Source: a virus
Strand: one strand, 5' to 3'
Length of the DNA stretch: 29,064 nt
IMG/VR virus record: IMGVR_UViG_3300001419_000031
Span: 1 to 29,064 of that record
The notes below the pieces were generated by a model. It was given only the letters and a program-made list of their open reading frames with translations. It had not been told where the DNA came from and made no database searches. The translations under genes and the position numbers were made by a program. This document shows, piece by piece, positions 1-29,064 of the stretch (positions within the stretch are counted from its first letter, which is position 1; each line of letters begins with the position of its first letter).

Positions 1-31
1 CTACCTCCCCCCCCCTAAAGGGGGGGAGTAG
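1..31. repeat. C-tract/G-tract inverted repeat (strong hairpin)
   Basis: Positions 1-4 (CTAC) pair with 28-31 (GTAG), T6 pairs with A27, and C7-C13 pair with G20-G26, leaving one bulged C and a six-base loop. There is no T-run after either arm, so it does not look like an intrinsic terminator. Further G-runs at 36-41, 55-59 and 61-63 could form a G-quadruplex with 20-26. Confidence 0.6.
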
Positions 32-121
32 GATAGGGGGGTGAATACCCGAGTGGGGGCGGGTGGTTGCCGTCCCGCCCAACTGGCAAAGTGGGCAACG
101 AAACAGAAAGAAATCCCCAAA

Positions 122-147
122 AGAGCCAGACTCGCGAGAATGGCTCT
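122..147. promoter_or_regulatory. Operator-like dyad
   Basis: AGAGCCA (122-128) and TGGCTCT (141-147) are perfect inverted copies, and the centre CTCGCGAG (131-138) is itself a perfect palindrome. Taken as a 13+13 dyad centred at 134/135, 11 of 13 positions match. Its place upstream of the first gene suggests a regulator binding site. No cognate regulator is visible in the window. Confidence 0.35.
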
Positions 148-167
148 AGAATCGCTCAGAATCGACG
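137..167 (+). repeat. Three tandem AGAAT-type direct repeats, period 10-11
   Basis: AGAATGGCTCT (137-147), AGAATCGCTC (148-157) and AGAATCGACG (158-167) follow each other without a gap. The period is about one helical turn, and the first copy overlaps the right half of the 122-147 dyad. This could be an iteron-like protein-binding array or a chance low-complexity patch. Confidence 0.35.
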
Positions 168-342
168 CGAGCGGTTGGGGGTATCCTCGGAGGGGTAGAC
201 CCGTCCGAGCGCAGCACGGGCGACGCTAGGGGCCTTGTCGTCGATGCTGGGTGGTTGGTCTTGGCGATTCCGGCGATCGGCGAGCAGACCGACCCACTTC
301 CGACCACCTGCCGGCGGGCAGATCGTGCTACCGTCCGGCACC

Positions 343-582
343 ATGACCGACCTCGCCACGCTCTCCATCGACGAGCTCACCAGACGACTCGGCCGGCGCG
401 TCGGACTCATCGACGAAGTCTCGGATCTACTCACCGAGCTCGCCGATCGCGTGGATGACTTCGGCGAGCACGAGATCGCCGAGATCATGCGAGACCAAAG
501 CGACGACATCCGAGAACACGCGCGACGCATCGAGATCCTCGACGGCGAGAAGCACCTGGAACGGATCGGCGAAAAAAGGTGA
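343..582 (+). CDS. Small acidic helical protein of unknown function
   Basis: The 79-residue product is rich in Asp, Glu, Arg and Leu, and its pattern suggests two or three amphipathic helices; no membrane segment or known motif is visible. The ATG at 343 is preferred because upstream in-frame starts would add a Gly/Pro/Arg-rich stretch that does not look like protein. There is no good Shine-Dalgarno sequence. It is the first gene of the rightward cluster, 22 bases before the DUF3310 gene. I do not recognise the family; the length and charge suit a small regulatory or accessory phage protein. Confidence 0.55.
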   Translation: MTDLATLSIDELTRRLGRRVGLIDEVSDLLTELADRVDDFGEHEIAEIMRDQSDDIREHARRIEILDGEKHLERIGEKR

Positions 583-604
583 CCGCATCTGGTAGCCTGC
601 CGGG

Positions 605-895
605 ATGGAGAACCGGGAAGTCCTCGATCCGGCGCACTACTCGTGGATGCGAGAGGCCGTCGGGTGCGAGCCGAAAGACATAGCCGGACTCCTGCCATAC
701 CACCCAGGCACCGCGCTCGTCTACATTCTGCGAGCCGGACGCAAGGACTACCAAGGCAAGGCCGTCGATGAAGCAGCAATCATCGAATACGAAAAAGCCA
801 TCCGGCACCTCGGATTCGAAGTCGAACGTCTCCGCAATCGACTATCTCGGCAACGCAACGCCGAGAGGGAAACCACCGTCGATCATTGCGAATGA
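605..895 (+). CDS. DUF3310 family protein
   Basis: The 96-residue product carries the DUF3310 pattern: an N-terminal DPAHY (residues 8-12), a middle stretch on keeping the chain at a fixed length before ALVYILRAGRKD, and a C-terminal EYEKAIRHLGFEVERL helix. The family is common in phages and is often annotated as a SaV-like or nucleotide-kinase-associated protein; its biochemical role is not settled. The usual genomic setting is early or replication genes, whereas here it lies upstream of the terminase. The last 128 bases overlap the next gene in another frame. Family assignment is firm; function is unknown. Confidence 0.8.
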   Translation: MENREVLDPAHYSWMREAVGCEPKDIAGLLPYHPGTALVYILRAGRKDYQGKAVDEAAIIEYEKAIRHLGFEVERLRNRLSRQRNAERETTVDHCE

Positions 896-1079
896 GCCGG
901 AGACATACGATGCCGCGCTGCAATGGCTCAGAGCGCGCGTTAGTCGCACGTCATCCATCAGCTTTCGGCAGTTCTACGACGAATACCTTGTGCCAGTCCT
1001 GAAGACGAAATACTCGCACAAGGGCATCCTCGAAACCATCAAGGCCCGTCATGCCGAAGAATACGGGCAAATCAACTGA
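768..1079 (+). CDS. Hypothetical protein, possible helical DNA-binding C-terminus
   Basis: The 103-residue product has a Ser/Lys/Pro-rich, probably disordered first 35 residues and a helical C-terminal half (roughly 45-100) with a pattern resembling a small helix-turn-helix (FRQFYDEYLVPVL, then KGILETIKARHAEEYG). No ATG, GTG or TTG lies in frame between 768 and about 990, so the 128-base overlap with the DUF3310 gene appears real unless a rare start is used. It ends inside the start of the phosphoesterase gene (29-base overlap), so translation is probably coupled. I do not recognise the family; the helix-turn-helix reading is a guess from pattern. Confidence 0.5.
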   Translation: MKQQSSNTKKPSGTSDSKSNVSAIDYLGNATPRGKPPSIIANEPETYDAALQWLRARVSRTSSISFRQFYDEYLVPVLKTKYSHKGILETIKARHAEEYGQIN

Positions 1080-2109
1080 GGACTTCCTGGCTCAGGCCGA
1101 GCAAGACAAGCTCCGCCTTGAACGCGATCGCGTCGAACGAGCAGCACGCGAGGAAGTCAGACAGCTCCAGCGAATGCTTGAGCTTGAACGCGAGCGCGCC
1201 GAACTCGCCGAGCAGACGCTGGACTTCGCGCTGTCGATCCAGCACCCACCAAACAAGCAACCGATCCCAGTCAGATCGGACAAGGCCAACAGCGCCATCC
1301 CAGTCCTCGTTGCGTCTGACTGGCATGTCGGCGAAACCGTAGACGCACGCACCGTTGCCAACCGCAACACCTACGATCCAGACATCGCACGGAAGCGGGC
1401 CGTCGCGTTCTTCCAGTCCTCGGCACGACTCATCGAGCTCGCGCGATCAGGCGTCAAGATCGACACCGCAGTCCTCGCCATCCTTGGCGACATCATCACC
1501 GGCTACATCCACGAGGAGCTCGAAGAGTCGAACGCACTCTCGCCAACTGAAGAAGTCCTGTTCGCCATTGACCTGATCGTCTCGGGCATCGACTACCTGC
1601 TCGACAAGGCCAAGCTCAAGAAGCTGATCATCCCGTGCTGCTTTGGCAACCACGGACGCACCGGCAAGAAGCGCAAGGTCTCAACGGCCGCGCGCAACTC
1701 GTTCGAGTGGCTGATGTATCAGTTCCTCGGCAAGCTCTACGAAAAGGACAAGCGCGTCGAAGTCATCATCTCTGACGGCGCGCACCTCTACCTTGACCTC
1801 CACGGCCACGTGATTCGGTTTACGCACGGTGACGACATTCGATATCAGGGCGGTGTCGGAGGATTGTCGATCCCGATGCGGAAGGCCATCGACTCGTGGG
1901 ACCACTTCCAGGACTGCCAATACACAGTCTGCGGACACTGGCACCAGCTGCTGTTCGGGCCTGACTTCGTCGTCAATGGCTCGCTGATCGGCTACTCGGC
2001 CTACGCGCTGTCGGTCAAGGCACGGTTCGAGAAGCCACAGCAGGCTTTCTTCCTTATCGACAAAGACCACGGACGCACGCTTTCGTGCCCGATTCGAGTC
2101 GAGCCATGA
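1051..2109 (+). CDS. Metallophosphoesterase (calcineurin-like)
   Basis: The 352-residue protein has an N-terminal charged coiled coil (about 8-60) and a complete two-metal phosphoesterase core. Visible motifs are SDWHVGE (D90, H92), GDIITG (D147), GNHGR (N200, H201), HGD (H259) and GHWH (H296, H298), in the canonical order. Such enzymes hydrolyse phosphomono- or diesters. Phage members next to packaging genes are often annotated as DNA-repair exonuclease-like, but the substrate cannot be read here. It starts inside the preceding gene and ends in an ATGA overlap with the next, so it is part of one operon. All metal ligands being present argues for an active enzyme. Confidence 0.9.
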   Translation: MPKNTGKSTEDFLAQAEQDKLRLERDRVERAAREEVRQLQRMLELERERAELAEQTLDFALSIQHPPNKQPIPVRSDKANSAIPVLVASDWHVGETVDARTVANRNTYDPDIARKRAVAFFQSSARLIELARSGVKIDTAVLAILGDIITGYIHEELEESNALSPTEEVLFAIDLIVSGIDYLLDKAKLKKLIIPCCFGNHGRTGKKRKVSTAARNSFEWLMYQFLGKLYEKDKRVEVIISDGAHLYLDLHGHVIRFTHGDDIRYQGGVGGLSIPMRKAIDSWDHFQDCQYTVCGHWHQLLFGPDFVVNGSLIGYSAYALSVKARFEKPQQAFFLIDKDHGRTLSCPIRVEP

Positions 2110-2354
2110 AGCAGAGACCGCAGCCACAACTTGAGGAACTGTTCTTGGATCTGCTCGAATACCGTGACAAACTCCTACGCAGCATAGGTCGCGAAGAGTC
2201 AGTCCAAGATCGGCAGGAACTGAGGCAGCGCATCATCGAATCCATCTCGGACACCACCGAGATCCTTGTCGGTGAAGTCCTCGAACGGTTCCTCCGCGTC
2301 GAGTTTGGGCTGACGGCTGACCCGATCGAACCAGATCAAGATGATCCAGACTGA
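2106..2354 (+). CDS. Small acidic helical protein, unknown
   Basis: The 82-residue product is strongly helical and acidic, ending in a run of Asp/Pro/Glu residues. The ATG at 2106 is chosen because it forms an ATGA overlap with the phosphoesterase stop; an upstream in-frame start at 2085 would need a longer overlap. It overlaps the next gene by 14 bases. No motif or membrane segment is visible. Its place just before the terminase small subunit suggests a packaging or late-regulation accessory role, but that is only context. Confidence 0.6.
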   Translation: MKQRPQPQLEELFLDLLEYRDKLLRSIGREESVQDRQELRQRIIESISDTTEILVGEVLERFLRVEFGLTADPIEPDQDDPD

Positions 2355-2574
2355 CAAGACTGTCGGCGAGCAAATACGCATCGCCATCGTCGCTGCTTCG
2401 GAACTGTCGCGCGCTCTTGATACACTACAGCGCAGAGTGCACGGACCATTCGATAGCGCGCTCGTCGAGACGGCTGCGGCTGATGTGACTGCGATCTACA
2501 TCGCTCTCGGCGAAGCACTCGTTCGATGTGGCAACGGGCGCATTCGCCAATACACCGAAAAGCAGACTACCTGA
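2341..2574 (+). CDS. Small helical protein, unknown
   Basis: The 77-residue product consists mainly of Ala/Leu/Ile-rich amphipathic helices (about 6-62) and a short basic, polar tail. The start overlaps the preceding gene by 14 bases and the stop overlaps the terminase small-subunit start as TGATG, which supports expression as part of the operon. There is no recognisable domain. The helical pattern could support oligomerisation, but no function can be assigned. Confidence 0.6.
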   Translation: MIQTDKTVGEQIRIAIVAASELSRALDTLQRRVHGPFDSALVETAAADVTAIYIALGEALVRCGNGRIRQYTEKQTT

Positions 2575-3095
2575 TGGCAGCTAAGAAGAGGCCAGTCGGC
2601 AGACCGCGGACGGTCATGACCAACGAGGCGAAGGCCAAGATCGTCAAGTCCGTCGAGCTCGGTATGTGGCCGGAGCGTGCTGCTGAAATGCACGGCATCA
2701 ACGGCGCCACCATGCGAAGCGAGCGCAAGCGCGATCCTGTATTTGCCACCGCCATAAAAGAGGCTGAGTCCAACGCTGAGAAGTCTGTGCTGTCTCGCAT
2801 GTTCCGGCACATGGAGACGCAGTGGACGGCGTGCGCTTGGATGCTGGAGCGCAGATGGGCTGAACGCTGGCGCAAGCGCGACGGCGACGACATGGCGCGC
2901 AAGGTGCGCTCCGAGCCCGTCAAGGATCAGAAGGACATCCACTCGCTGCTGATGGACATGGTCAGCGCCGCGGCGTCTGGCAAGATCACGCCGAAGCAGC
3001 TCAAGGACATGGCGCAGTCGCTTGGCATCGCGTCTGACATCAGCGAGCGCGCCGATCTGGAGGAGCGCATCAAGAAGCTCGAAGGCAATGGGTAG
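2574..3095 (+). CDS. terS: Terminase small subunit
   Basis: The 173-residue protein begins with a basic KKRPVGRPR arm, followed by a helix-turn-helix-like segment (about 28-52), and contains ACAWMLERRWAERW (86-99), a motif characteristic of phage terminase small subunits. TerS recognises the packaging site on phage DNA and regulates the large subunit. The C-terminus (about 110-173) is helical and charged, ending in EERIKKLEGNG. The ATG at 2574 forms a TGATG overlap with the preceding gene; a longer start at 2526 lies inside that gene. The start of the large subunit overlaps its last codons by eight bases, the normal terS-terL order. Confidence 0.85.
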   Translation: MAAKKRPVGRPRTVMTNEAKAKIVKSVELGMWPERAAEMHGINGATMRSERKRDPVFATAIKEAESNAEKSVLSRMFRHMETQWTACAWMLERRWAERWRKRDGDDMARKVRSEPVKDQKDIHSLLMDMVSAAASGKITPKQLKDMAQSLGIASDISERADLEERIKKLEGNG

Positions 3096-4683
3096 ACCGC
3101 GCAGCGCGCTGCTTGTCCGCATCGACGAGCTCGAAGCCAACAGCGGACAGGCAGGCCAAGCTGTCATCGAGGACCTGCGGCGCACCGTCCAGGCCATGCG
3201 CGATTGCCGGCCGAACGAGGACACGCCCGCTGCTCGCCGCAAGGCAAAGGCTGCGCTGGAGATCCTGCCGCCCAAGTGGGCCGAGATCTTCGGGCGCTAC
3301 GACTACCACCCAACCCAGGCCCAAGCGCGCACCTCGCAGGCTCGCTATCGGGCGATCGAGGCCGGCCGCCGATCAGGCAAGACAGCAGACCGCAAGGCAG
3401 AGATCGTCGAGCGCGCGCTGGACCCTGACTGGTTCCAAGCCAACGGACTCTCGCAGAGGTTTATCGCTGTCGGCCTGCCAACCCAGCAGCAGACGCGCGA
3501 CCTCTACATGGACGACCTCGTCTCGCTGATCCCTCGACGATTCCTCGCAGGCGAACCGCGCTACTCTGACCCGCAGATGATCCGCACCGTCGCCGGCGGA
3601 CGGATCAAGCTCGCCGGCATGGACAGGCCGCAGCGCGCAGAAGGTGAACCGATCGACGATCTGTTCCTCGACGAGGTCGCCGACATGCGGCTCGGGCGAG
3701 CTGTCATCGACAGGCACCTTCGGCCATCGCTCTCGACGCGAGGTCGGCCACCCGGCTCTGTGACAGCCTACGGGACCACCGACATGGTCTCGGGCTCTGA
3801 GTTCATCGAACTGTGCGACGGATGGCTCACGCGCCAGCAGGACGGCGACAGCGAATACGCATACTTTCACTGGTCCTCGCAAGGCATCATCAGCGACGAG
3901 GAATGGGAGCGGCAGCGCACGCAGCTCGACCCGGCGACCTTCGCTGTCGAATACGAGGCACGGCGCGTCTCGACCGGCGACCTCGCCTACTGGTGCTTCC
4001 GTCGAGCCGAGAACGTCACGCCGTCGCTGCGCCTGATCCCGGACACGCCAGCCATCCTGTGCTTCGACTGGAACGTCAGGCCGGGCACCGCGACCATCCT
4101 TCAGGAGCAGTCGATCGAGGACTACACGACAGCCGACATCCTGCCGGAGAAGATCTCCGACGACTTCACGGCTGTCCTCGGCGAGGTATTCCTGCGCAAC
4201 AACGGCCAAGCGCCGCGCGTCGTTGGTGCTGCCATCCAGAAGCTACGCGAGCTCGGCCACCGCGGGACTGTCCTCGCCTACGGCGACCCTGCCGGCGGAG
4301 CCTCGCACGCAGCCGCAACCGAAGGCACCTGTCTTGAGCATCTCCGCAAGCTCGGGCGAGAGGCGTTCGGTGATCGGTTCTCGATGCGGTTCCGCAAGTC
4401 CGCGCCGGCAATCGTGGCTAGGCTCAACGCCGTCAACGGACGGCTCAGGTCAGCCGACGAACAGATCAGGATGCTCGTGCACCCGTCGTGCGTCGAGACG
4501 ATCAAGGACTTCGAGCAGGTCCACATCGAGCAGGCCAAGTCCGGCGCCATCCAGATCGAGAAGGCGACCAGCGGCCCGAAGAAGGACCGCACGCACCTGA
4601 CCGACGGTCTCGGCTACTATGTCGCCGCCGAGTTCCCATCGCGCACGCGGACGGGACTCGTGGACGCTGACCTTGGCGTATAA
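3088..4683 (+). CDS. terL: Terminase large subunit (ATPase-nuclease)
   Basis: The 531-residue protein is the DNA-packaging motor. The ATPase domain shows a Walker A motif GRRSGKT (93-99), a Walker B motif DLFLDEVADM with D195/E196, and a coupling motif TAYGTTDM. The C-terminal RNase H-like nuclease shows its acidic residues in CFDWN (D327), YGDPAGG (D400) and HLTDGLGY (D506). Length is typical. ATG 3088 overlaps the end of terS by eight bases and gives the natural MGRPRS start; a longer in-frame start at 3022 lies inside terS. The first 85 residues are helical and precede the motor, perhaps contacting TerS or the portal. Confidence 0.95.
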   Translation: MGRPRSALLVRIDELEANSGQAGQAVIEDLRRTVQAMRDCRPNEDTPAARRKAKAALEILPPKWAEIFGRYDYHPTQAQARTSQARYRAIEAGRRSGKTADRKAEIVERALDPDWFQANGLSQRFIAVGLPTQQQTRDLYMDDLVSLIPRRFLAGEPRYSDPQMIRTVAGGRIKLAGMDRPQRAEGEPIDDLFLDEVADMRLGRAVIDRHLRPSLSTRGRPPGSVTAYGTTDMVSGSEFIELCDGWLTRQQDGDSEYAYFHWSSQGIISDEEWERQRTQLDPATFAVEYEARRVSTGDLAYWCFRRAENVTPSLRLIPDTPAILCFDWNVRPGTATILQEQSIEDYTTADILPEKISDDFTAVLGEVFLRNNGQAPRVVGAAIQKLRELGHRGTVLAYGDPAGGASHAAATEGTCLEHLRKLGREAFGDRFSMRFRKSAPAIVARLNAVNGRLRSADEQIRMLVHPSCVETIKDFEQVHIEQAKSGAIQIEKATSGPKKDRTHLTDGLGYYVAAEFPSRTRTGLVDADLGV

Positions 4684-4724
4684 GCTGCTCGGCAGTGTAT
4701 GATCGACAACCGGACCCAATCACC

Positions 4725-5039
4725 ATGCGCTGCGCAATCTTGCTGACGATCCTGTGCCTGCCATCGTGCGGGCTGTTCTCGCCGGACACCAAGCCGGCAA
4801 CCGATGCGATGGTCATGCTTGAGCAGATCAACGCAGCGCGCCTTGAGCGCGAGATGGCACTCGCCGAGCGCATCACCGACGAGGACGCCCGCGCACAGTG
4901 GGTTGCGGCCTTTGAGCGCGACGCCGGGCAGGTCTCGTCGATGCACTCCAAGCTGCTCGAATGGGTGGATGCTGTCGGCGCGATCAACTGGAAGGAGCTC
5001 TACGAGTCCGTGCGGATTGAGCCGGGAGTCGAGCGATGA
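4725..5039 (+). CDS. Small predicted lipoprotein
   Basis: The 104-residue product starts with a short signal peptide: MR, a hydrophobic stretch (residues 3-12) and a lipobox-like LPSC ending at Cys15. The remaining 85 residues are soluble, acidic and helical. ATG 4725 is preferred over a GTG at 4695 because it puts the hydrophobic segment at the N-terminus. A mature lipoprotein of this size next to a holin-like gene fits an outer-membrane spanin-type or other envelope protein, but it lacks the proline-rich tract of classic Rz1. It ends in an ATGA overlap. Proline at position -2 of the lipobox is unusual. Confidence 0.65.
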   Translation: MRCAILLTILCLPSCGLFSPDTKPATDAMVMLEQINAARLEREMALAERITDEDARAQWVAAFERDAGQVSSMHSKLLEWVDAVGAINWKELYESVRIEPGVER

Positions 5040-5272
5040 CGCTGTTCAACGGCGAGCTGCCTGACCCAGGCGAGATCGACATCAGCCCGGCAGAGACTGG
5101 CGACATTCTGTCTCGGTTGGCTTCGATGACCGACGAGGAGTTCGAGGCCGTCTGGGTCAAGCTCGATGCCAAGGTCCACGAGGCCAAGTTCTACCGGCAG
5201 GTCTTTCTCTCGACGGCTCAGGCGCTCGAATCCCTGAAGCCAATCATCGCCATGCTGAAGGCTGCGCTATGA
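5036..5272 (+). CDS. Small acidic protein between lipoprotein and holin-like genes
   Basis: The 78-residue product has an acidic N-terminal half (residues 5-45, with a TDEEFEAVW helix) and a more hydrophobic C-terminal helix (about 48-78, with LKPIIAMLKAAL). There is no signal peptide and no clear membrane segment. It is joined by ATGA overlaps on both sides, so it is translated together with the lipoprotein and the holin-like protein. Its family is unknown to me; context suggests a role in the same envelope-related cassette. Confidence 0.6.
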   Translation: MTLFNGELPDPGEIDISPAETGDILSRLASMTDEEFEAVWVKLDAKVHEAKFYRQVFLSTAQALESLKPIIAMLKAAL

Positions 5273-9260: not shown

Positions 9261-10439
9261 ATGGTGACTCCGGTTGTGTCCGGCGCTTGGAACGCGCAGC
9301 TCTACGCTCTCGAAGCGCTGCGCTACCTGAGCAACACTCGTCCGTTCCTGATGACCACGAACACTCGGTATGAGACCGAGCGTCGTGCGTTTGGCATTGG
9401 TGACACGATCACCATCAAGAAGCGGCAGACTCCGACGGTTCGGACTGATGCCGACCTGTCCTACGACTCGCTCGCTCCGGGAACGCTCCAGCTGACCGTG
9501 GACCAGTATCGGCACGCATCGAGCGAGATCGCCGACTGGGACCTCGCGTTCGCGGGCCAGGAGTGCCTTGACATGCATGTCTTCCCGGCGGTTGATGCGC
9601 TGGCGGACAACATCACCACGCACTGCCTCCAGAAGGCCTACCAGGGCGTTGGCCCTTACAGCGCGGTCAGCGACCCGGCTGCTGCTGCCGACATCACCGC
9701 CGCTCAGAAGGTGCTGATGACGAACAAGGCACCGATCCAAGACGAAGCCAACATGCACTTCGTCATCAGCCCGTCGATGAACGCCGAGCTCCTGAACCTG
9801 TCGGCGTTCACGCAGTGGCAGGGATCGGGTGCGACCGGCGTCCAGAACCAGCGGACCGGCCAGCTGACGCCGCGCTACGGCTTCAACTTCCACCCGACGC
9901 AGCTCCTGAGCACGCACGCTCCGGGCACGCTTGGCGGCTCGCCGCTGGTGAACGGCGCTGTCGCGAAGGGCGCAATCACGCTGTCGCTTGATGCGGCTGC
10001 GACCTCGGGCACCGTCAAGGCTGGTGATGCGTTCACCATTGCCGGCGACTCGACGGTCTACGTGGTCACGGAAGACGCGACGGCCAGCTCGGGCGCGATC
10101 ACCGGACTGAAGTTCGCGCCTGAGCTCCAGGTTGCGGCAGCCGACAACGCTGTGCTGGCCTTCGCGACGTTCCAGTCGGCGGTCGCTTCTGGCGACGTGA
10201 TGAACATCGCCTACCACAGCGATGCCTTCGCTTTCTGCGCGGTTCCGCTGCCGGTTGGCCCGCAGCACACGCAGGCCGCCGACATCGGCGTCGCGACCGA
10301 CCCGCAGAGCGGTCTCTCGCTGCGCGTGGTCATGGCCTGGGACGCCGCGAGCCGCAAGTCGAAGATGACCGTGGACGCGCTGTTCGGGTTCAAGGTCCTG
10401 AACCCGATGCTCGCCGTTCGCGCCTACCAGACCATCTGA
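9261..10439 (+). CDS. Major capsid protein, P22 coat type
   Basis: The 392-residue protein resembles the P22 gp5-type coat family. It has an N-terminal helix, then GIGDTITIKKRQTP, LQLTVDQYRHASSEI, and a C-terminal part with SGLSLRVVMAWD and VDALFGFKVLNPMLAVRAYQ. Between about 225 and 310 lies an insertion with VKAGDAFTIAG (252-262) and YVVTEDA, matching the KAGD-FTIAG segment seen in the inserted (I-) domain of this family. It forms the icosahedral shell on the scaffold. A Shine-Dalgarno sequence at 9248-9254 supports the start. The product appears complete. An HK97-fold assignment follows from the family. Confidence 0.85.
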   Translation: MVTPVVSGAWNAQLYALEALRYLSNTRPFLMTTNTRYETERRAFGIGDTITIKKRQTPTVRTDADLSYDSLAPGTLQLTVDQYRHASSEIADWDLAFAGQECLDMHVFPAVDALADNITTHCLQKAYQGVGPYSAVSDPAAAADITAAQKVLMTNKAPIQDEANMHFVISPSMNAELLNLSAFTQWQGSGATGVQNQRTGQLTPRYGFNFHPTQLLSTHAPGTLGGSPLVNGAVAKGAITLSLDAAATSGTVKAGDAFTIAGDSTVYVVTEDATASSGAITGLKFAPELQVAAADNAVLAFATFQSAVASGDVMNIAYHSDAFAFCAVPLPVGPQHTQAADIGVATDPQSGLSLRVVMAWDAASRKSKMTVDALFGFKVLNPMLAVRAYQTI

Positions 10440-20600: not shown

Positions 20601-21226
20601 GCATCTCGCAGATCGAGCAGGCGCTCACGTCGGTCTTCACGGACTTCTTCGATGCACCGACGACTGGCGAGTCCCTGATCGTCGCTGCCGTAGGGCGCGT
20701 AGAAGCCGCTGTGCGCTCCTCTGCTGCGTTCGGCGGGGTAGGCGGAGTGGGAGTCGGCGTTGGCGGCGAGGCGGCTGATGGTGGCTTCTACGGGCCTCCT
20801 GTGCCTGCTGGCTTTGGCGCTGCCGGCGGCGGTGGCGGTGTGGTCGCTGGAGCTCAGGCTGGCGGATTCATCGGGCCGCCGATGACCGCTGCCGCATCAG
20901 GCGGGCTCTATGGGCCGCCAGTGCCGGATGGATTCCAGTTCGCCGGCGCGCAAGCACAGCCGTCCTTCTGGGACAGCTTCACCAGCAACCTCGGCACTGC
21001 CTTCGCCGGCGCGGCGATCTCGTTCGCGTTCAGCCTTGCTGCCAGCAGGCGTTCCGGTGACGGTCCTGAGCGCGCGCCCGGGTTCGGCGTGATTGGCCTT
21101 GAGGACCGCTTCGGCAGAGGCACCTACAACGACAACCGGAACGTCACGAACATCATCTCGCCGACGCCGCGCATCGCGCAGCAGAACTTCCGGCAGCAGG
21201 CCGAGCAACGACTTCGGCGATTCTGA
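17648..21226 (+). CDS. Tail tape measure protein (TP901 type)
   Basis: The 1192-residue protein sets tail length. An N-terminal coiled coil (about 10-70) precedes a TP901-type core (about 135-310) with LSQVQAISRATVPELERI, many Ala-rich helices and GIKASRAGTGLAGILRRL. A hydrophobic stretch (about 462-496) is a candidate membrane-active segment used during DNA entry. Long coiled coils (about 500-930) follow. The C-terminus has Gly-rich linkers with three GPP repeats at residues 1045, 1072 and 1085. With about 0.15 nm per residue, the tail would be near 180 nm long. Sections at about 17650-17960 and 19130-19680 are less GC-rich than the rest, hinting at recombination. Confidence 0.92.
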   Translation: MAEIRESIVLEVKSEGAQQSAQQLTFAFDKLSDELANTEKKLDGASSASDELSRAEKKLGDEAGKATKAVKQQRDELGRFVGGANQAGRSLDVFSRRFRETANRAREAVGPLTRIASLFAGGLGVRAVSDSLASFDRGLSQVQAISRATVPELERIRQVSLDLGAATSKSASEALQGAVELARAGFSAVEVPQALPATLNLSVTAGLDLARASEIAANAIRQFALNADDTVRVTDALTVVANNASTDVQQLADALGFAGPLAASFGLDIEQTAAALGAISDGGIKASRAGTGLAGILRRLVDPSKEARQEFDRIGIAIQDLDPRTNDFANVVDRLGEAYRNGADFTQIFEAEQIAAAIVLARLEERYDSLLTKQRESTDAAGEQADAFGRDLQGAFDRFGSTLEAITLKAGDQGLGLALKQVTEFGIETLQVLGGLDDSSRDVSDGAQLAASAIEGVGVALGALLALSGGAALIASLANPFVAAAAAVGVLVTAVRSASRELKELEQSSVDVSNSIETAIKNSAEFAAELEKLSRIGGLRFEAQTSQDTERFLTTLINRTVQLADETRRLAADPSARLIVNSFSDLNNQIQEAEDNVNSLQRQLSGLLDIGPPREEFGGELDLFVRQTTKLRKEIVDAKAELDILVGSARQSRGITFIPIGEDIRLIAEQAGLLDQLAEAEKRATEGATTLEDRVSLLTTAQERLSASLDQVNGKSREAAKAAGEAADATNRQAEAARELADQQARQQFDASIAGLRQQIELIESRTKALRDAGAEQGRFLDVLREQENEDATRTLALQEIARLESQNVEITEERTQAIFDQAAALVAAQSGQQALIEALRDEFREREKLDRAAGRGASRARERDFDAEQAQRRAAQAQEQAEAIARGLQLEALSYSRTREEVERLRLEEQLRGTEVSENLKDEIRLIQQQTEEIRASREAAAAIGSSLAGGVGDALRTLRESGSGADALIAGLQGVSDRIFQASISQIEQALTSVFTDFFDAPTTGESLIVAAVGRVEAAVRSSAAFGGVGGVGVGVGGEAADGGFYGPPVPAGFGAAGGGGGVVAGAQAGGFIGPPMTAAASGGLYGPPVPDGFQFAGAQAQPSFWDSFTSNLGTAFAGAAISFAFSLAASRRSGDGPERAPGFGVIGLEDRFGRGTYNDNRNVTNIISPTPRIAQQNFRQQAEQRLRRF

Positions 21227-22284
21227 TGGCATTTCACGACACAGCCTTCCTTCCCGTCGAATACAGCTACGGCTCTGCCGGCGGGCCGAGTCACGAGACG
21301 GTCATCCAGCAGACGCCGAACGGGCGCTCGCTGCGGATCGCGCGATCGGACGATCCGATCATGCGCTACCAGATCGACCTGCGCGTGCTCGATGAGAACC
21401 ACATCAGGATCGGTCCGCTCATCAACTTCGTGCGCGCGCGGCGAGGATCGCTTCACGGCTTCCGGTTGCTCGACTTCGCCGATCACTCGACGAACACCAC
21501 GCACATCGGCCAGATCGACGTGGACGACCTCGATGCTCGGCACGAGCTCGGCATCGGCGACGGGACGCAGGCCGTCTACTCGCTGATCAAGATCTACACG
21601 GACTCCGGCGAGTCTGTGACCCGTCGCATCGAAAAGCCGATGCGCGTCGCCGAAGCGAACACGATCAGCAAGATCTCGTGGCTGGCAAACGCCACGCGCA
21701 CCGTGTGGGTCTGGGTTGATGGCACGCTGAAGACTGAGGGCACGCACTACACCGTCGATTACGCGAACGGCAAGATCACGTTCGTGACTCCGCCCGCTCT
21801 CGGCGAGTCCGTTAAGTGGGCCGGATACTTTGCGGTGCCTGTCTTCTTCGGCCCGGAGGTGGACAAGTTCCTGCGGATTTCTGCGAGCAGCTACGCGGAG
21901 CGGCAGACTGACACCATCACGATGATCGAGACGAAGCAGGACACGGCATACTTGGCAATGGAGCGAGATCCACGAGGTGCAAAGCGTTGGGTTGTTTCTG
22001 CGTCCACCGTCGTTCACCAGCTCAGCTTCTACGATGGGCAAGTCCAGCTGTTCAATGCGGACGCCGTCGGAGCCAGCATCGACATCCATATGCCGGAGGC
22101 CGCCGACTGGATGCTAGGAGGGCCGCTGTTCTTCATCGGCAACAACGGCTCCACCGAGAACCTCGTCGTCAAGACCTACGGCGGTGCTGCCACGCTCTTC
22201 ACTCTCGGGCCTAGCGCGTCCGTCTCGATGTTCCTCTGCCCGGATGGTTCCGGCGGATATGACTGGGTCATCGTGAACGCATGA
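21226..22284 (+). CDS. Distal tail protein, DUF2460 (GTA gp12-like) with extra beta-domain
   Basis: The 352-residue protein begins with a DUF2460 domain (about 1-235). Landmarks are FHDTAFLPVEYSYGS, RSLRIARSDDPIMRYQID, ARRGSLHGFRLLDFADHS and YTVDYANGKITFVTPP, all close to the GTA gp12 family that forms the ring between tail tube and hub. Residues 254-352 are an extra beta-rich domain not usual in the family (with IDIHMPEAADWMLGGPLFF). A similar unit seems to form the next gene. TGATG with the tape measure and ATGA with the next gene show coupled translation. Confidence 0.88.
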   Translation: MAFHDTAFLPVEYSYGSAGGPSHETVIQQTPNGRSLRIARSDDPIMRYQIDLRVLDENHIRIGPLINFVRARRGSLHGFRLLDFADHSTNTTHIGQIDVDDLDARHELGIGDGTQAVYSLIKIYTDSGESVTRRIEKPMRVAEANTISKISWLANATRTVWVWVDGTLKTEGTHYTVDYANGKITFVTPPALGESVKWAGYFAVPVFFGPEVDKFLRISASSYAERQTDTITMIETKQDTAYLAMERDPRGAKRWVVSASTVVHQLSFYDGQVQLFNADAVGASIDIHMPEAADWMLGGPLFFIGNNGSTENLVVKTYGGAATLFTLGPSASVSMFLCPDGSGGYDWVIVNA

Positions 22285-22709
22285 AGACCACGCGCGCAGC
22301 AGCTGAGTTTGGCGGCGCGGCTCGCTGGCTGAACCAGACAACGCAGGACCGCAGGGTTCACCCTGCGCACTACCGGCTCTACGTCGTGAGCACGGCCGGA
22401 TCGGGTGACATCATTGACCTCGTGCTGCCGTCCGTTGAGGAGGCGCACAAGATGCTCGCCGGCACCACGCTCTACGCGCTGAACCGTGGCATCCAGGGCA
22501 ACCTGCGCTTCAAGCTGGCGTCGGGCTACTACTGGAACTTCACCGGCTCAGTCTGGCAGGGCACAGCGACCAGCGCGTGCCTGATCGGTCCAGGCTACAT
22601 CGGCAAGGCCGTCTACTTCGGCAGGCCAGCGTCCGGCGTGCCCGTGGACATGACGGACTTCCGCTGCTTCAAGCTGCAATCCAACACCCGCATCATGACC
22701 ATCGGATGA
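22281..22709 (+). CDS. Beta-rich tail tip protein, related to the DUF2460 extension
   Basis: The 142-residue product contains IIDLVLPSVEEAHKMLAGTT (about 38-57), which aligns by eye with the extension of the preceding protein (IDIHMPEAADWMLGG), including the following N-G-N-L-K pattern. It lies between the DUF2460 and DUF2163 genes, where RcGTA has no gene. ATGA overlaps on both sides. A baseplate accessory or host-contact role is likely by position; no named family is recognised. Confidence 0.6.
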   Translation: MKTTRAAAEFGGAARWLNQTTQDRRVHPAHYRLYVVSTAGSGDIIDLVLPSVEEAHKMLAGTTLYALNRGIQGNLRFKLASGYYWNFTGSVWQGTATSACLIGPGYIGKAVYFGRPASGVPVDMTDFRCFKLQSNTRIMTIG

Positions 22710-23665
22710 TTGACGTTCCCGCAGCACTGGTTCCGAGTCGCGCGTCGAGGTCGCTACAGATCTCGAAGTGCTATGCGATCATCGCGGTCAACGCGACGAC
22801 TCAGCTGCGCTGGGATCTAACGGACAACCAGCACGACATCCTGACCGTCGGATCGGACGGTTCGGTTGTCACGTATCAGGCTGCGAACGTCGTCGTCTCT
22901 CAGCCTCGCCGGCGTCAGTCGGGGATTCGATCAAACTCTGCCGAGATACAGATCGGGCTTGATGACCTGACCGGCGTCACCAAGGCCGACATCGACAAGG
23001 ACCTGCTGATCGGCGCGCGCGTCGTTGAGCTTGAGGTCGATGCGCTGCACCCGTGGATCTTCCACCGTCGGTTCTCGTGGTATGTCTCGGACGTTCGACA
23101 CGGCAAGGGCGTCGCGATCTTGTCGCTTGTCGGCATCAGCTCGAAGTTCCAGTCAATGGTCGGCGAGTCGATCACGACGCGCTGCCAGAACAAGTTCTTC
23201 AACTTCAACTGCAACAACGGCAACTCGCTGTCGTCGGTGCTTGAGGGCGGCACGCAGAAGTTCGGGTTCCGCGAATACAAGACAGCATCCGATCCGACGT
23301 ATCTGGGTCGGCGTCGCGTGCGGATCATGGAGGACGCCGACACGTTCCCAACCGACAGCCTGACGGCGGCTGATTGGTGGGCGCACGGCACGCTCAAGTT
23401 CGTCAGCGGCCCAGCTGCCGGCCAGATCGTCTACGTGGAAGCCAACGACCAGCCGTTCACGTCTGGCGGATTCCTATACTGCGACCTGACGCTAGCAACT
23501 CCGCTGGCGTTCAATCCGACATCGGGCAACGACCTAGAGCTGCGCGTCGGCTGCGGGCGGTATCTGGCTGTCTGCCGTGACAAGTTCAGCAACCTTGACA
23601 ACTTCCGTGGAGATCGCGACGTTGCCGGATCGGACAACCTCCAGCGCACGCCGTCTGCCGATTGA
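22706..23665 (+). CDS. Tail hub protein, DUF2163/BR0599 (GTA gp13-like), probable Fe-S binder
   Basis: The 319-residue protein has an N-terminal DUF2163 domain (about 1-150) and a C-terminal BR0599-type domain ending in LRVGCGRYLAVCRDKFSNLDNF. Four cysteines follow a C-x8-C (160, 169) and C-x6-C (283, 290) arrangement, like the [4Fe-4S]-binding tail tip protein L of lambda. It forms the hub through which the tape measure and DNA leave. ATG 22706 makes an ATGA overlap and gives the natural IDVPAAL start. The protein is complete. Fe-S binding is inferred from spacing and family. Confidence 0.88.
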   Translation: MIDVPAALVPSRASRSLQISKCYAIIAVNATTQLRWDLTDNQHDILTVGSDGSVVTYQAANVVVSQPRRRQSGIRSNSAEIQIGLDDLTGVTKADIDKDLLIGARVVELEVDALHPWIFHRRFSWYVSDVRHGKGVAILSLVGISSKFQSMVGESITTRCQNKFFNFNCNNGNSLSSVLEGGTQKFGFREYKTASDPTYLGRRRVRIMEDADTFPTDSLTAADWWAHGTLKFVSGPAAGQIVYVEANDQPFTSGGFLYCDLTLATPLAFNPTSGNDLELRVGCGRYLAVCRDKFSNLDNFRGDRDVAGSDNLQRTPSAD

Positions 23666-23669
23666 CATC

Positions 23670-24077
23670 GTGCAGCGAGCTCGTGGCGCGATCGGCACGC
23701 CGTTCCGGCATCAAGGCCGGCAGCCGCATGTTGGTCTTGACTGTCTCGGGCTTGTCGTGCACGCGATCGGTTCTGGCGCCAAAGCCGTAGACCAGCGCGA
23801 CTACGCAACCGTCCCGGATTCCATCAGACTAGATGCCGCGCTGCGTCGGTATTTCGATGCCGTTGATGTCGATGATCCGACAGACGCGCCGGAAGGAAGC
23901 GTGCTGGCATTCTGTGTGTTCGGCGACCCGCACCGATCAGTGCGTCATCTCGGGATCAAGTCTGACCGTGGTATGATCCACGCTCGACATGGCGCTCGGA
24001 ACGCCGTCGTTGAGATCACGATCGGCCCGGCTTGGCATGATCTGTTCATCGGAGCGTATCAATGGCGAGCGCAGTAG
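23670..24077 (+). CDS. NlpC/P60 tail tip peptidase (GTA gp14-like)
   Basis: With the GTG at 23670 the product has 135 residues. It begins with the family's first helix and GTPFRHQG, then GLDCLGLV with the catalytic Cys (residue 25), VRHLGI with the catalytic His, and MIHARHG. These tail-associated peptidases cut peptidoglycan stem peptides during infection. The start is uncertain: GTG 23670 lies four bases after the hub stop and has no Shine-Dalgarno; GTG 23577 or 23607 would add up to 31 residues overlapping the hub gene. The gene order hub, peptidase, gp15-like protein is that of GTA and related phages. The last 16 bases overlap the next gene. Confidence 0.88.
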   Translation: MQRARGAIGTPFRHQGRQPHVGLDCLGLVVHAIGSGAKAVDQRDYATVPDSIRLDAALRRYFDAVDVDDPTDAPEGSVLAFCVFGDPHRSVRHLGIKSDRGMIHARHGARNAVVEITIGPAWHDLFIGAYQWRAQ

Positions 24078-26962
24078 GACAAGCGGCTGGAACCGCAGCA
24101 GCCGGCCCAGTGGGCGCGGCTCTCGGTGGGTCAATTGGCGGGCTGATTGACCAGCTATGGATGTCAAAGCTGATAGCTTCGACCCGTCAGCCGATCCGCG
24201 CCATTGACATCCCGATTTCGCACGCAACAGACGGCACGGCGTCCACGCTGATCTTCGGAGACTATGCTCGCATTCCGCTGCACCTGACGTGGACTTCGCG
24301 GCCTTGGGTCATCCAGCAGAGCGGCACCGACAAGCGAGGCATCCAGGCTCCAGACAAGTGGCTTGTGCAAGCGCAGTGGATGGCTGCGAACAACGCCATC
24401 GGCGAGTTTGATCAGCTGATTGCCGAAGGCAAGCGCATCTACACCAAGCCGTTCACGTCGGGTGACTCACTCACGACGGGCACAGATGCAAACATCCTGA
24501 CGATCCGCCAGACGAACAACACCGACTTCATCACGCGGTTCAACATCTACAACGCCAAGGACGGACTTGGCGATCCTGTTGATGCTGATCTTGCGGAGTT
24601 CCTTGGATCGCTCGACGAAGGCAGCATCACGCAGTTTGTGATCAGCTCGCCGTCGATCAGCATTCAGACGAAGGTCATCTCGTCTCGAATCACTGACGCT
24701 GCCGGCAACGCCGAGCTCAAGCTGGAGCTGGACACGCCCTATGACACGGGCGGCAGCACGTCGCCTTGGGGCATCTTGCTTGGGTTCTCCAGCACGATGG
24801 TTTCAGGCGTCAGCATCTCGTTGACGAACACCGCCGTCCAGTATGACCCAAAGGTCTTTCCTGGCGGTGCGGCCAGCGTAGAGCTGAACCTCAACGGCGC
24901 GATCAAGTCGTCGATCATGGTCTCGGCAATCGGCAGCGACAACGTGCCGAAGAACCGGAACCGCGCCTACGTTGTGTGCGATGAGTTTTTGCTGTCGGGA
25001 TTCGGAAACCGGATGCCGAACATGTCAGCCGTCGTGGCTGGTCGCACTGGCTTCCTGACGCTGAACGACACGGTCGATTACGTTGCGCGCAACCTGACAG
25101 GACTGAACTCGGCGCTGTCGAACAACGACAACGTGCCGGCAGATCAGATGGATGGTCTGGCCGTCTATGCGCCATTCGAGCCCGGCGAAGTTCTGGAGAA
25201 GCTGCGCGCGTCGAACGGTCTGCTCTGGCGAGAAGGCAACGCCGGGCACACATCCATCTACGGCGAGTTCTTCATGGACTCGTCGAGGTCGATCAACTTC
25301 ATCGACTACTTCGGCTTCAACGCTCGCCGGCCGTCAGAGGACTTCGAGGAAGTCGATCTCAAGCTCGGCCGCATCGACAGCAACGAGCGCATCAGGAAGG
25401 TGGAGATTTCGTTCTCCAACAAGTTCGACAGCTGGCAGCGAGGCGTCGAGGCCGAAGAGCTTGAGCACGTTCCGCTCGGCAAGGAAGTTCGCATCAACCT
25501 TGACGACATGGTGATGACGCGCGCGGCTGCAAAGACGATTGCGCGGAGGATGCTGCACGAGTCGTGGAACCGCACCTATCAGGTGAGCTGGATCGCGTCA
25601 TGGGAGCACGCCATCTTCCAAGAGGAAGACATCATCGGCTTTACTGACGACGCCGGCGATGTCTGGACGGTCATCGTTGATCAGATCGACGAGACGGCGG
25701 ACTTCTTTGTCGAGATCACCGGCTGGGTCATCGCGCCCGAGCAGCTGTCGGACAACCCATCCAGCCTGAGCTCCACGAACGACAGCGACCCGCGCTACGA
25801 CGAGGGACTGCCGCGCGTGCCGGTCGCCTACACTCCGCTGACGACCTACGTCGTGGACGTGCCACCGATCTACGATGAGCACGTAGGTGAACCGGGGGTC
25901 TACGTGGCTGCCTGCAACGTCGATCCCACGCTGGCCTTCCAGGGAGCCGTGGTCTTCGTCAAGCGGCCTTCGGATCAGTCCTGGCACGCTGAGGCCGTCA
26001 TCGAGACTGCGGCGACTGTAGGGCGAACCACGGACGCTCTCGCGAGCGTTGTCAGCACGGCCAGCTACGACACGGTCAACACCGTCAACGTCGAGCTCGA
26101 AGGCATCGGCCAGCTGGCGACGGTCACGGAGGCTGAGGTCGATGATGCGGTCAACCTCGCGCTGATCGGCACGGAGGTCGTTGGCTTCCGCGATGCCACG
26201 CTTGAGGCGGACGGAACCTACACTCTCGACCACCTGAGCCGCGGCCGGATGGCAACGGAGGATCAGGTTGGCACGCACGCGGTCGCCGAGCCGTTCGTGA
26301 TGCTGTCGGGTCTGACTTGGCTACCGCTGGCGGCTGAGGACATCGGCACGACGATCGAGGTCAAGATGGTCCCGCCGGGCGCCACGATCGACCAAGTGCA
26401 GCCGATCAGCTACACGGTCACGCTGCCGACGTGCGTGCCAGTGCCGCCGGCAGACGTGACGATGCTGGACAACGGCGACGGCAGCCTGACGGCCTCGTGG
26501 ACGTATCGAAGTCTGCACACGATCAGGTTCCGCAATCCGGCGCAATCTCCGGTGCTGGCTGGTGACACGGTGCAGGTCAGCGCATGGAACGGCACGATCA
26601 GCGGAGATGCCGACTATGTGGCGAGCGTGCTGGCGTCGCAGTCCACCTTGACGCTGACGTATCCTGCGAACGAGGGGCTGGAAGGTCCGACGATCAACGC
26701 GCAGGTGAAGCAGGTCTCGGCAACGTTCGGTGCAAGCTCTGCGGCATCGGCTAGTCTGTCGGCCAGCTACGTGCCGGTCGTGGACCTTGAGGACACGATC
26801 CTTGGGCTTGATGCTGGCACCGATAGCGGCGGCGAGTTCCTTGTGACCGCGGGCAGCCAAGAAACGCGATGGGTGCGCGCTGCGAACTATGGTAGCATCG
26901 ACAATGACTTCGGGTCTGTCGCCGATGCTGCGTCTTCCGTGTATGATTACGGGAGCCTCTGA
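24062..26962 (+). CDS. Large tail tip protein, GTA gp15-like
   Basis: The 966-residue protein begins with a Gly/Ala-rich hydrophobic segment (about 5-30), as is usual for this family. The body contains FGDYARIPLHLTW, a middle hub-like section (about 380-580) with EDIIGFTDDAGDVWTV, and EVVGFRDATL followed by LDHLSRGRMATEDQVGTHA (about 706-740), a signature of GTA gp15-type C-termini. An FN3-like domain follows (about 796-885). RcGTA gp15 is longer and has a TIM-barrel glycosidase-like part that I do not see here. It is the central tip protein that carries receptor-contact domains. It ends with a TGATG overlap. Confidence 0.82.
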   Translation: MASAVGQAAGTAAAGPVGAALGGSIGGLIDQLWMSKLIASTRQPIRAIDIPISHATDGTASTLIFGDYARIPLHLTWTSRPWVIQQSGTDKRGIQAPDKWLVQAQWMAANNAIGEFDQLIAEGKRIYTKPFTSGDSLTTGTDANILTIRQTNNTDFITRFNIYNAKDGLGDPVDADLAEFLGSLDEGSITQFVISSPSISIQTKVISSRITDAAGNAELKLELDTPYDTGGSTSPWGILLGFSSTMVSGVSISLTNTAVQYDPKVFPGGAASVELNLNGAIKSSIMVSAIGSDNVPKNRNRAYVVCDEFLLSGFGNRMPNMSAVVAGRTGFLTLNDTVDYVARNLTGLNSALSNNDNVPADQMDGLAVYAPFEPGEVLEKLRASNGLLWREGNAGHTSIYGEFFMDSSRSINFIDYFGFNARRPSEDFEEVDLKLGRIDSNERIRKVEISFSNKFDSWQRGVEAEELEHVPLGKEVRINLDDMVMTRAAAKTIARRMLHESWNRTYQVSWIASWEHAIFQEEDIIGFTDDAGDVWTVIVDQIDETADFFVEITGWVIAPEQLSDNPSSLSSTNDSDPRYDEGLPRVPVAYTPLTTYVVDVPPIYDEHVGEPGVYVAACNVDPTLAFQGAVVFVKRPSDQSWHAEAVIETAATVGRTTDALASVVSTASYDTVNTVNVELEGIGQLATVTEAEVDDAVNLALIGTEVVGFRDATLEADGTYTLDHLSRGRMATEDQVGTHAVAEPFVMLSGLTWLPLAAEDIGTTIEVKMVPPGATIDQVQPISYTVTLPTCVPVPPADVTMLDNGDGSLTASWTYRSLHTIRFRNPAQSPVLAGDTVQVSAWNGTISGDADYVASVLASQSTLTLTYPANEGLEGPTINAQVKQVSATFGASSAASASLSASYVPVVDLEDTILGLDAGTDSGGEFLVTAGSQETRWVRAANYGSIDNDFGSVADAASSVYDYGSL

Positions 26963-27114
26963 TGCCTCCAAAGAGCAAGAAGCAAGAGCGGCTGATGCGC
27001 GCGGTTCTGAACGATCCTGCCTTTGCCCGGCAGGTCGGTATCTCGCAGTCTGTCGCTCGCGAGTATCTTGGCGAAAAGCCGAAGAAGAAGGCACCTCGTA
27101 GGCGGGCGCGCTGA
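26962..27114 (+). CDS. Very small basic phage protein (50 residues)
   Basis: The frame from ATG 26962 to the TGA at 27112-27114 encodes 50 residues and is joined by TGATG overlaps to both neighbours. The sequence has KKQERLMRAVLNDPAFARQVG, with QSVAREYL and a basic KKKAPRRRAR tail; a closely similar K-Q-R-FM-A / FA-KVG / QSV-EY pattern recurs in small proteins of many tailed phages. The function is unknown; the basic tail suggests nucleic acid or partner binding. The double overlap makes it a convincing real gene despite its length. Confidence 0.75.
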   Translation: MPPKSKKQERLMRAVLNDPAFARQVGISQSVAREYLGEKPKKKAPRRRAR

Positions 27115-28160
27115 TGGCAGAACAGGTCCAGCTCAGGCGAGGCACGACGGCACAGCACTCGACGTTCACGGGTGCTGTCGGCGAACTCACGATCGACACG
27201 ACGAAGAATACCGGCGTCGTGCACGATGGCTCCACGGCTGGCGGTATCCCGCTTGCCAAGGAAGCGGCAATCCTCACGTCGCTTGAGGTGCGGAGCGGAA
27301 CTAGCGCGCGCGAGGCGTTGATCTACAACACCTACACCGACGCGAGCAACTACGAGCGCGCAGCGATCGGCTTTCAGACGCTGTCGAACACGCTGACGAT
27401 CGACACCGAAGCAGCCGGCACGGGAACGGTGCGTGGTCTGTCGATTGGCTCAGAGACGCTCTACATCGACCCGGCAGAGAACCGCGTAGGGATCGGACTC
27501 GACACGCCCTACGCGACGCTAACGGTGCGCTCGCAGGGCACCAACAACACACGCGGCATCGCTGGCGAGCATACCGACAACACCACGGCCTTCTCTCAGT
27601 TCAAGTTTGTTGGCCGCCGCTCGCGTGGATCGCACGGCTCGCCGTCTGCTGTGCTCGCTAACGACTCGCTCGTCAGCTTCAACGGCGCCGGCTACAAGGC
27701 AACGGACTGGTCTGACACTGTCGGCGGGCTCTACGTCTACGCGCGCGAGAACTGGACGGACACGGCCACGGGCACGTTCATTACGCTGCGCGGTCCGAAG
27801 CCCGGGACGACAACGCCGCAGGAGTGGGCTCGGTTCCAGTCTGACGCTGTGCAGTTTACGCCTGAGTGGACGGCAGCAGGCACGACGTATACGGCGCTCA
27901 AGGTCAACCCAACGAACACGGCAAGTGCTGCGGCGACGAAGCTGCTGGACCTTCAGATCGGCGGGACTTCGAAGGTTTCTGTCGGCAAGGACGGCGACAT
28001 CTCGACCGTCTCGTTCGCACAGTTCGCCGAGATCAGCACGCCATCGACGCCGGCCGAGAACGAGTGCCGGATCTATGCCAAGGACAACGGATCGGGATTG
28101 ACGCAGCTCGTCGTGCTGATGCCTGACGGCGTCGAGACCGTTCTTGCCACTCAGACCTGA
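27114..28160 (+). CDS. Tail fibre-like protein with Mtd-type N-terminus
   Basis: The 348-residue protein starts with QLRRGTTAQHSTFTGAVGEL and HDGSTAGGIPL (about 5-48), the Mtd-type N-terminal motif that anchors fibres to tails. A beta-rich middle follows, with RVGIGLDTPYATLTV (about 123-137), a trimeric-fibre signature. The C-terminus has ENECRIYAKDNG and LVVLMPDGVETVL, common at the ends of such proteins. It probably contacts the host surface. I see no variable-repeat or C-type-lectin end typical of diversity-generating systems. TGATG overlap at the start. Confidence 0.75.
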   Translation: MAEQVQLRRGTTAQHSTFTGAVGELTIDTTKNTGVVHDGSTAGGIPLAKEAAILTSLEVRSGTSAREALIYNTYTDASNYERAAIGFQTLSNTLTIDTEAAGTGTVRGLSIGSETLYIDPAENRVGIGLDTPYATLTVRSQGTNNTRGIAGEHTDNTTAFSQFKFVGRRSRGSHGSPSAVLANDSLVSFNGAGYKATDWSDTVGGLYVYARENWTDTATGTFITLRGPKPGTTTPQEWARFQSDAVQFTPEWTAAGTTYTALKVNPTNTASAAATKLLDLQIGGTSKVSVGKDGDISTVSFAQFAEISTPSTPAENECRIYAKDNGSGLTQLVVLMPDGVETVLATQT

Positions 28161-28161
28161 C

Positions 28162-28165
28162 GGAG
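28162..28165 (+). promoter_or_regulatory. Ribosome-binding site of the spike base gene
   Basis: GGAG lies six bases before ATG 28172, in an 11-base gap after the fibre gene. It supports this start. Confidence 0.5.
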
Positions 28166-28171
28166 ACACAG

Positions 28172-28429
28172 ATGACCGCGCCATCCATTTCCAACCACAA
28201 CAACCCAAGCCCGGCCGAGTATGCCGAGATTGTGACGCCTGCGTCTGCGGACCTGCCGGCGATCACGCGAGCCATCTACATTGCAGCGGCCGGCAACCTG
28301 ACCGTCGTGATGGCGGGCAAGGGCAACACGTCCACGGTGACGTTCAACAACGTCGTGGCCGGTAGCGTGCTACCGATTCGCGCTCGCCAGATCACGGCCG
28401 CACCAGCGAACACCGTCGCGCTTTACTGA
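28172..28429 (+). CDS. Spike base protein, GTA rcc01079-like
   Basis: The 85-residue product matches the small family annotated as spike base protein, RCAP_Rcc01079 type. It shows EYAEIVTPASADLPAITRAIY, a VTFNNVVAGSVLPIRARQI segment, and ends in the typical VALY. In Rhodobacter capsulatus GTA this protein (GhsA) forms the base of the head spikes that bind capsule. Here it lies in the main structural cluster rather than at a separate locus. The next gene starts four bases after the stop and may encode the matching spike fibre. Confidence 0.85.
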   Translation: MTAPSISNHNNPSPAEYAEIVTPASADLPAITRAIYIAAAGNLTVVMAGKGNTSTVTFNNVVAGSVLPIRARQITAAPANTVALY

Positions 28430-28432
28430 GCT

Positions 28433-29064
28433 ATGAACCTCGGCATCGGACTCGGCGTCACCAACTACCTGCGCGTCCCGACGGTTGCGCTGGACCCAGA
28501 TGCTGCCATCGCCGCGCTGTTCCAGACGGGAACGCCCGGGGTCTACCACGAAGGCGCATGGTATGACCCGTCCGATTCGGCGACGGTGTTTCAGGATGCG
28601 GCTGGGACTACGCCTGCTGGTGTGGGCGATCCTGTTGGGCTCATCCTGGACAAGTCGCAGGGGCTGGCGCTTGGGAGCCAACAGGTGGTCGATGGCGGGT
28701 TCACCGACATCGCAAACTGGCCCGCAGAGGGAACGCCAACGATCCGAGAGATCGACGCGAACGGCGACCTCCATATTTCCGGTGCTCACAACACGGGCGT
28801 GACTCAGCAGATACCCGGGCTTGCTACCGGCTGGCATGAGGTCACGATCGAAGCAAGGGTCGTCACCGGGTCGATCAAGTTCCAGATGAACTTCTCCGAA
28901 ACGATCGGCCCAGCAGTGTGGGGACCGACATTCAGCACGGCCACATACAGGGTCCTGCTGAATCAAGGCAGAAGGGACGTCAAGATCGCTTGTGGCGGGA
29001 CTGCCGAGTTTTACGTCCGCAGCATAAGCATCAAGCCACTAGCAGGCAATCACGCAAGCCAAAG
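28433..29064 (+). CDS. Probable spike or fibre protein, 3'-truncated by the window
   Basis: The open frame from ATG 28433 runs through the window end (210 complete codons). Residues 37-75 hold GVYHEGAWYDPSD, FQDAAGTTPAGVGDPVG and LILDKSQG, a motif widespread in phage fibre and spike proteins. A jelly-roll, carbohydrate-binding-like domain follows (about 81-200, with ANWPAEG and TGWHEVTIEARV). After it, LAGNHASQ resumes the usual continuation of the first motif. Position directly after the spike base suggests a spike fibre (GhsB analogue). The C-terminal part is not visible. Confidence 0.7.
   Translation, partial: MNLGIGLGVTNYLRVPTVALDPDAAIAALFQTGTPGVYHEGAWYDPSDSATVFQDAAGTTPAGVGDPVGLILDKSQGLALGSQQVVDGGFTDIANWPAEGTPTIREIDANGDLHISGAHNTGVTQQIPGLATGWHEVTIEARVVTGSIKFQMNFSETIGPAVWGPTFSTATYRVLLNQGRRDVKIACGGTAEFYVRSISIKPLAGNHASQ

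Follow-up and report, generated by a model that had tools for sequence, protein, structure and literature searches.

Complete absence of GTAC from a tailed phage and its relatives, and a small phage gene that tracks the same absence elsewhere

An exact count over the window, meaning here the whole virus contig of 29,064 bases that was analysed (positions 1..29064), finds no GTAC on either strand, as the preliminary description had claimed, and the phage has very probably been purged of the site by selection from some GTAC cutter. In a separate phage-plasmid family, that of Rhizobium phage RHEph10, the same absence follows one small phage gene and not the class of the host, which means that a GTAC-free genome need not reflect evasion of a host enzyme.

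GTAC in the window phage and its relatives

The zero count contrasts with 98 sites expected from base composition, close to the hundred or so estimated beforehand, and with 34 and 40.0 expected from first-order and second-order (trinucleotide) Markov models, respectively. Synonymous-codon shuffles of the window's genes, with proteins and codon usage held constant, gave 81.3 +/- 7.3 sites, the lowest of 300 trials being 57. The compositional bias for GTAC is 0.0, below the observed/expected ratio of 0.1 taken as a mark of restriction-site avoidance, and the selection acts at synonymous sites rather than through composition, which is the other such mark. No other palindromic tetramer is depleted comparably; AATT and TTAA are few in this GC-rich sequence and CTAG stands at about half of its expectation. 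CCWGG-type sites are also few in the window (RCCWGGY 0 observed for 19 expected, CCAGG 40 for 85) and GATC is in excess (302 versus 214 by codon shuffle).

The window belongs to a tailed phage, with terminase, portal, scaffold, P22-type coat, neck, tape measure and tail-tip genes. The terminase large subunit lies on the plus strand at 3022..4683 (PHROG 2, E 1.8e-15; start codon provisional), followed on the same strand by the P22-type major coat protein (9261..10439; PF11651, PHROG 283) and the tail-tip block (21226..26962; PHROGs 2913, 778, 329 and 4271). A phage exonuclease of the metallophosphoesterase kind is encoded at 1051..2109 (plus strand; PHROG 284, E 5e-48), and no test made it a candidate GTAC cutter. 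A near-identical contig (pieces L001 and L004, 98.8-99.9%) extends the phage 7 kb upstream, into a region coding for a helicase, an N4/N6 methyltransferase, a MazG-like protein and a RusA-like protein, where GTAC is again absent; the phage DNA known in total amounts to 36,043 bases, with 0 sites for 43 expected.

Codon choice in the window and the 7 kb upstream is bent round the missing site, as had been noticed by inspection: before tyrosine, glutamate is encoded by 20 GAA and 1 GAG where 6 and 15 were expected, leucine by 17 CTC and 1 CTG where 6 and 8 were expected, and tyrosine after a G is TAT without exception. The control residues His, Asn, Asp and Phe show no comparable codon shift. 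The codon pairs before tyrosine have mostly moved to C-ending codons by transversion, which goes beyond mere G-to-A changes.

GTAC is likewise absent from the relatives L002/L003 (79% DNA identity over the L002 alignment), whose coat protein is 95% identical to that of the window, and L007 (80-86% in most matched blocks). From the observed substitutions, 15 new sites would be expected in the 79% relative and 10 in the 80-86% relative, none of which has arisen, and the window and its relatives differ by paired changes, CTAC to GTAT for example. These comparisons confirm that the removal of GTAC in this clade reflects strong selection that is still continuing, and long-term selection is supported because the loss is specific, falls at synonymous sites and persists across relatives.

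Eight hexamer palindromes, GTCGAC, ATCGAT, CTCGAG, CTGCAG, GCATGC, ACGCGT, TCCGGA and ACCGGT, are also at zero in the window and upstream region, and GACGTC and GGATCC occur once each there, with 11-34 copies expected for each of the ten. Since these hexamers were selected from the window itself, their joint depletion there is biased, whereas the contrast with relatives is unbiased: GTCGAC is found 0 times in the window and upstream (34 expected) versus 11 times in L002, and CTCGAG 0 times in the window versus 4 times in L007. The loss of GTAC is constant in the clade while the hexamer losses vary between relatives, and the latter look like the traces of changing host restriction.

A small gene and GTAC absence across other phages

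Whole phages of 104-176 kb also lack GTAC, with 0 sites for 123 expected in RHEph10, 0 for 125 in RHph_Y2_11 and 0 for 136 in Citromicrobium phage RXM, and metagenomic phages of 176, 132 and 97 kb contain 0 of 294, 0 of 242 and 1 of 167 expected sites. Losing one tetramer wholly from genomes of 100-176 kb requires very strong and constant selection. A literature search, made largely among papers outside subscription, returned no earlier report of GTAC avoidance in phages. Normal counts are found in phiCbK, R5C, RcXuper and S-H1, as well as in those parts of RHEph01, phiM12 and 16-3 that were read, and a universal alphaproteobacterial host factor was rejected, as unrelated phages of Rhizobium, Sinorhizobium, Caulobacter, Dinoroseobacter and Rhodobacter retain the site. 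The window, RXM and the phages G001-G003 are short of many hexamers and RHEph10 is not; many hexamers are gone throughout the G001-G003 and RXM-like phages (97-176 kb, GTAC 0 or 1; L160-L175, L188-L192, L176-L180, L101 and L305-L313).

Among the relatives of the RHEph10 terminase, GTAC is eliminated in 44 of 68 testable contigs and near expectation in most of the others, and no other tetramer behaves in this way, CTAG being generally low. On the terminase tree the GTAC-zero state involves 13 changes, at least 11 of them forced by well-supported branches. Named members that are GTAC-free in the stretches read come from Rhizobium, Sinorhizobium, Pararhizobium, Shinella and Methylobacterium, and GTAC is plentiful in those from Acinetobacter, Salmonella, Pseudomonas and Stenotrophomonas. 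Protection of the GTAC-bearing members by a methylase of their own was also considered, and a motif search gave no such pattern. Of the genes common to RHEph10, RXM and G001, the two least often matched in GTAC-bearing phages resemble ribonucleotide reductase subunits.

What the absence does follow in the RHEph10 phage-plasmid family is a small gene of about 140 amino acids with the motif N[YF]xxRGGxxQRYLP, located in RHEph10 at L181:10078-10494 (JX483881 50078-50494) and with homologues in L417-L450. All nine GTAC-free genomes carry the gene and its motif, three of them (G395, G396 and G400) as a diverged version, and the gene is absent or motif-broken in 8 of 8 GTAC-bearing or partly recovered genomes: it was not found in G403-G406, and the motif is broken in G409 (13 GTAC sites), G407 (41), G401 (153) and G402 (170). 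Fisher's exact test gives p 4e-5, ignoring kinship and with motif integrity scored by eye when GTAC counts were already known. A screen from RHEph10 alone at E < 1e-3 missed the gene, which was found at E < 1e-2 with all GTAC-free genomes as queries.

When viral contigs were scanned with the small gene, 34 loci were recovered, ranging from 37% to 66% GC, with GTAC at zero throughout (29/29 testable), the only other tetramer eliminated being GGCC, once. After deduplication, 26 loci with 470,809 bases hold 0 GTAC versus 535 expected, and the 21 loci recorded as not belonging to the discovery genomes hold 0 versus 428; intact copies occur at GTAC-free loci only. In named collections, ten records of Rhizobium phages and nine of plasmids contain the gene; all eleven GTAC-free named members measured have it, and the four gammaproteobacterial ones are absent from the matches. 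Moreover, the gene can be separated from host class, because a phage-type plasmid of the betaproteobacterium Cupriavidus metallidurans carries it and has 0 GTAC for 46 expected in 35 kb, while 43 sites for 40 expected are present in an Agrobacterium plasmid whose copy of the gene is unannotated and degraded.

The small protein belongs to no Pfam family and has weak PHROG matches to function-unassigned families. Its residues R23, Y25, D69, N112, R116, Q121 and Y123, numbered as in the L423 protein, are invariant. Its predicted structure is a confident model (mean pLDDT 87.3), for which the best match among solved structures is the fusellovirus nuclease D212 (probability 0.99), followed among the nearest by the homing endonuclease I-Ssp6803I; both similarities are weak (E 0.034 and TM-score 0.42, E 0.19 and TM-score 0.31, respectively), as are those to the PD-(D/E)XK nuclease fold, and no catalytic motif was identified in the protein. 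The nuclease resemblance of the model is suggestive and falls short of proof. In several records the annotation places an ASCH-domain gene at or adjoining the small gene, and the Cupriavidus plasmid has a metallophosphoesterase and an SMC-family ATPase (SbcD- and SbcC-like) near it, neighbours that would fit DNA degradation. For the RHEph10 family we favour a self-imposed purge, in which the small protein is probably a GTAC-specific nuclease working without a methylase and tolerated because the phage genome has no targets; a GTAC-binding repressor or toxin is another possible function.

Other words are missing from some of the sequences surveyed. CGATCG, which is methylated in Rhodobacter sphaeroides 2.4.1 (PMC6256690), is found 0 times for 100 expected in Dinoroseobacter phage R5C (L094), where GTAC is normal, and GGCC is wholly gone from phiM12 (L397), L093, L272 and L273 (0/36, 0/31, 0/32 and 0/28 expected). 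The contig L005 (IMGVR_UViG_3300024274_000087), with 26% GC, has no GTAC or CTAG and strongly reduced GATC, TCGA, AGCT and CATG. Additionally, the 215,656-base contig IMGVR_UViG_3300046694_000296 (L283 and L285) carries two related terminase genes separated by about 107 kb and is perhaps two joined phage-plasmids or a doubled assembly.

What may have removed GTAC from the window phage

If GTAC-containing DNA were cut at some stage of the phage life cycle, selection would purge the sites, and the agent slightly favoured for the window phage, at little better than an even chance, is a Type II restriction enzyme of the host with RsaI specificity. This reading is preferred because the phage has lost about eleven palindromes in all, GTAC among them, several of the others being removed in some relatives only, and because the 36 kb known show no detectable copy of the small gene and the phage, unlike RHEph10, avoids many hexamers. 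On the other hand, the constancy of the GTAC loss in the clade while hexamers change would be compatible with a phage-borne agent as well, and in other phages the absence follows a phage gene. The long-term escape from GTAC restriction proposed in the preliminary description stands as far as selection is concerned, and no host or GTAC restriction gene that could be linked to the phage was identified.

Evidence on the host comes from the host-specificity protein (24062-26962, plus strand), the last gene of the tail-tip block, whose matches are mostly to alphaproteobacterial phages, namely those of Caulobacter, Brevundimonas, Ruegeria, Erythrobacter and Sphingobium. These matches lend indirect support to the alphaproteobacterial host suggested earlier, although they tie no particular host to the phage. 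A search of 84,980 bacterial and archaeal genomes for relatives did not identify the host, as the coat protein had none there and the methylase relatives were taxonomically mixed, the closest being in a Planctomycetota MAG (80%) and then in a Rhodopila MAG (78%). In an alphaproteobacterial sample, a 20 kb stretch of genome G069 (L205) has 0 GTAC for 29 expected and low GATC, and this bacterium is a possible host with GTAC restriction.

Phage site avoidance is well known and is usually attributed to host enzymes. Complete or nearly complete elimination of a site was reported in about one tenth of the genomes in a viral survey (PMC6286503), and the window resembles those cases in having lost a Type II palindrome entirely, specifically and at synonymous sites; it differs in that no cognate host enzyme is known for it, and the RHEph10 group differs in that the trait follows a phage gene. 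RsaI, which had been ascribed to Rhodobacter sphaeroides, is indeed a GTAC m4C system and alphaproteobacterial, but it is now assigned to Rhodobacter blasticus 28/5 (PMC6256690) and has no link to the window phage. As for glycosylases, the PabI family (PF09522) was rejected as a common host cause, being present in 2 of 385 alphaproteobacterial genomes only, and PF09522 gave no match to the small phage protein. R.PabI itself is a GTAC-specific restriction glycosylase. In the alphaproteobacterial genome G240 (L222), a PabI-family restriction gene adjoins a gene with an NPPY methylase motif.

Less probable than a host enzyme, but a serious contender, is that the window phage encodes its own GTAC-specific nuclease, which would be safe only in a genome without GTAC sites and whose proposed purpose is to destroy host DNA or exclude rival phages or plasmids. 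The window shares the trait of the small-gene carriers, and the gene-by-genome association, the plasmid pair, the nuclease-like model and the clade-constant loss described above all speak for such an agent. Against it, a profile search in six frames found no member of the small-gene family in the 36 kb of this incomplete genome (window, L001 and L004) or in L006, L007, L002 and L003, none was detectable in RXM or G001-G003, and the nuclease activity of the small protein is itself deduced. The gene would then lie in the unassembled part or be too diverged for recognition; the window clade, RXM and G001-G003 would carry a different or diverged GTAC nuclease.

It is very improbable that the phage methyltransferase (L004:2998-3966) targets GTAC and brought about the loss of the site through mutation or through a mismatch with a host enzyme. 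This protein is of the N4/N6 type (PF01555) with an SPPF motif, and its gene adjoins that of the helicase; nevertheless, relatives 74-87% identical occur in about 80 other phage contigs, with GTAC eliminated in 0 of 45 testable ones, and no PF01555 gene is present in the other GTAC-free phages that were searched. Equally improbable, and refuted by the counts, is the idea that GTAC is simply rare in such genomes through composition or host mimicry, for although the site is somewhat under expectation in some sampled genomes, most alphaproteobacterial genome stretches retain it, other alphaproteobacterial phages have normal counts, and neither the codon shuffles nor the control residues agree with this view.

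Meaning for phage genomes

Across alpha- and betaproteobacterial hosts, and in a family whose tree forces at least 11 changes of the trait, the missing site goes with one small phage gene and its motif; genomes with a broken motif have GTAC. If the proposed activity is true, the small protein would be a compact new sequence-specific nuclease, in effect a restriction enzyme lacking a methylase, whose recognition of self would be encoded by the sequence of the entire phage genome, an unusual form of self/non-self discrimination by a parasite. Consequently, if the small gene cuts GTAC, a palindrome missing from a phage genome would not by itself attest to past restriction by the host.
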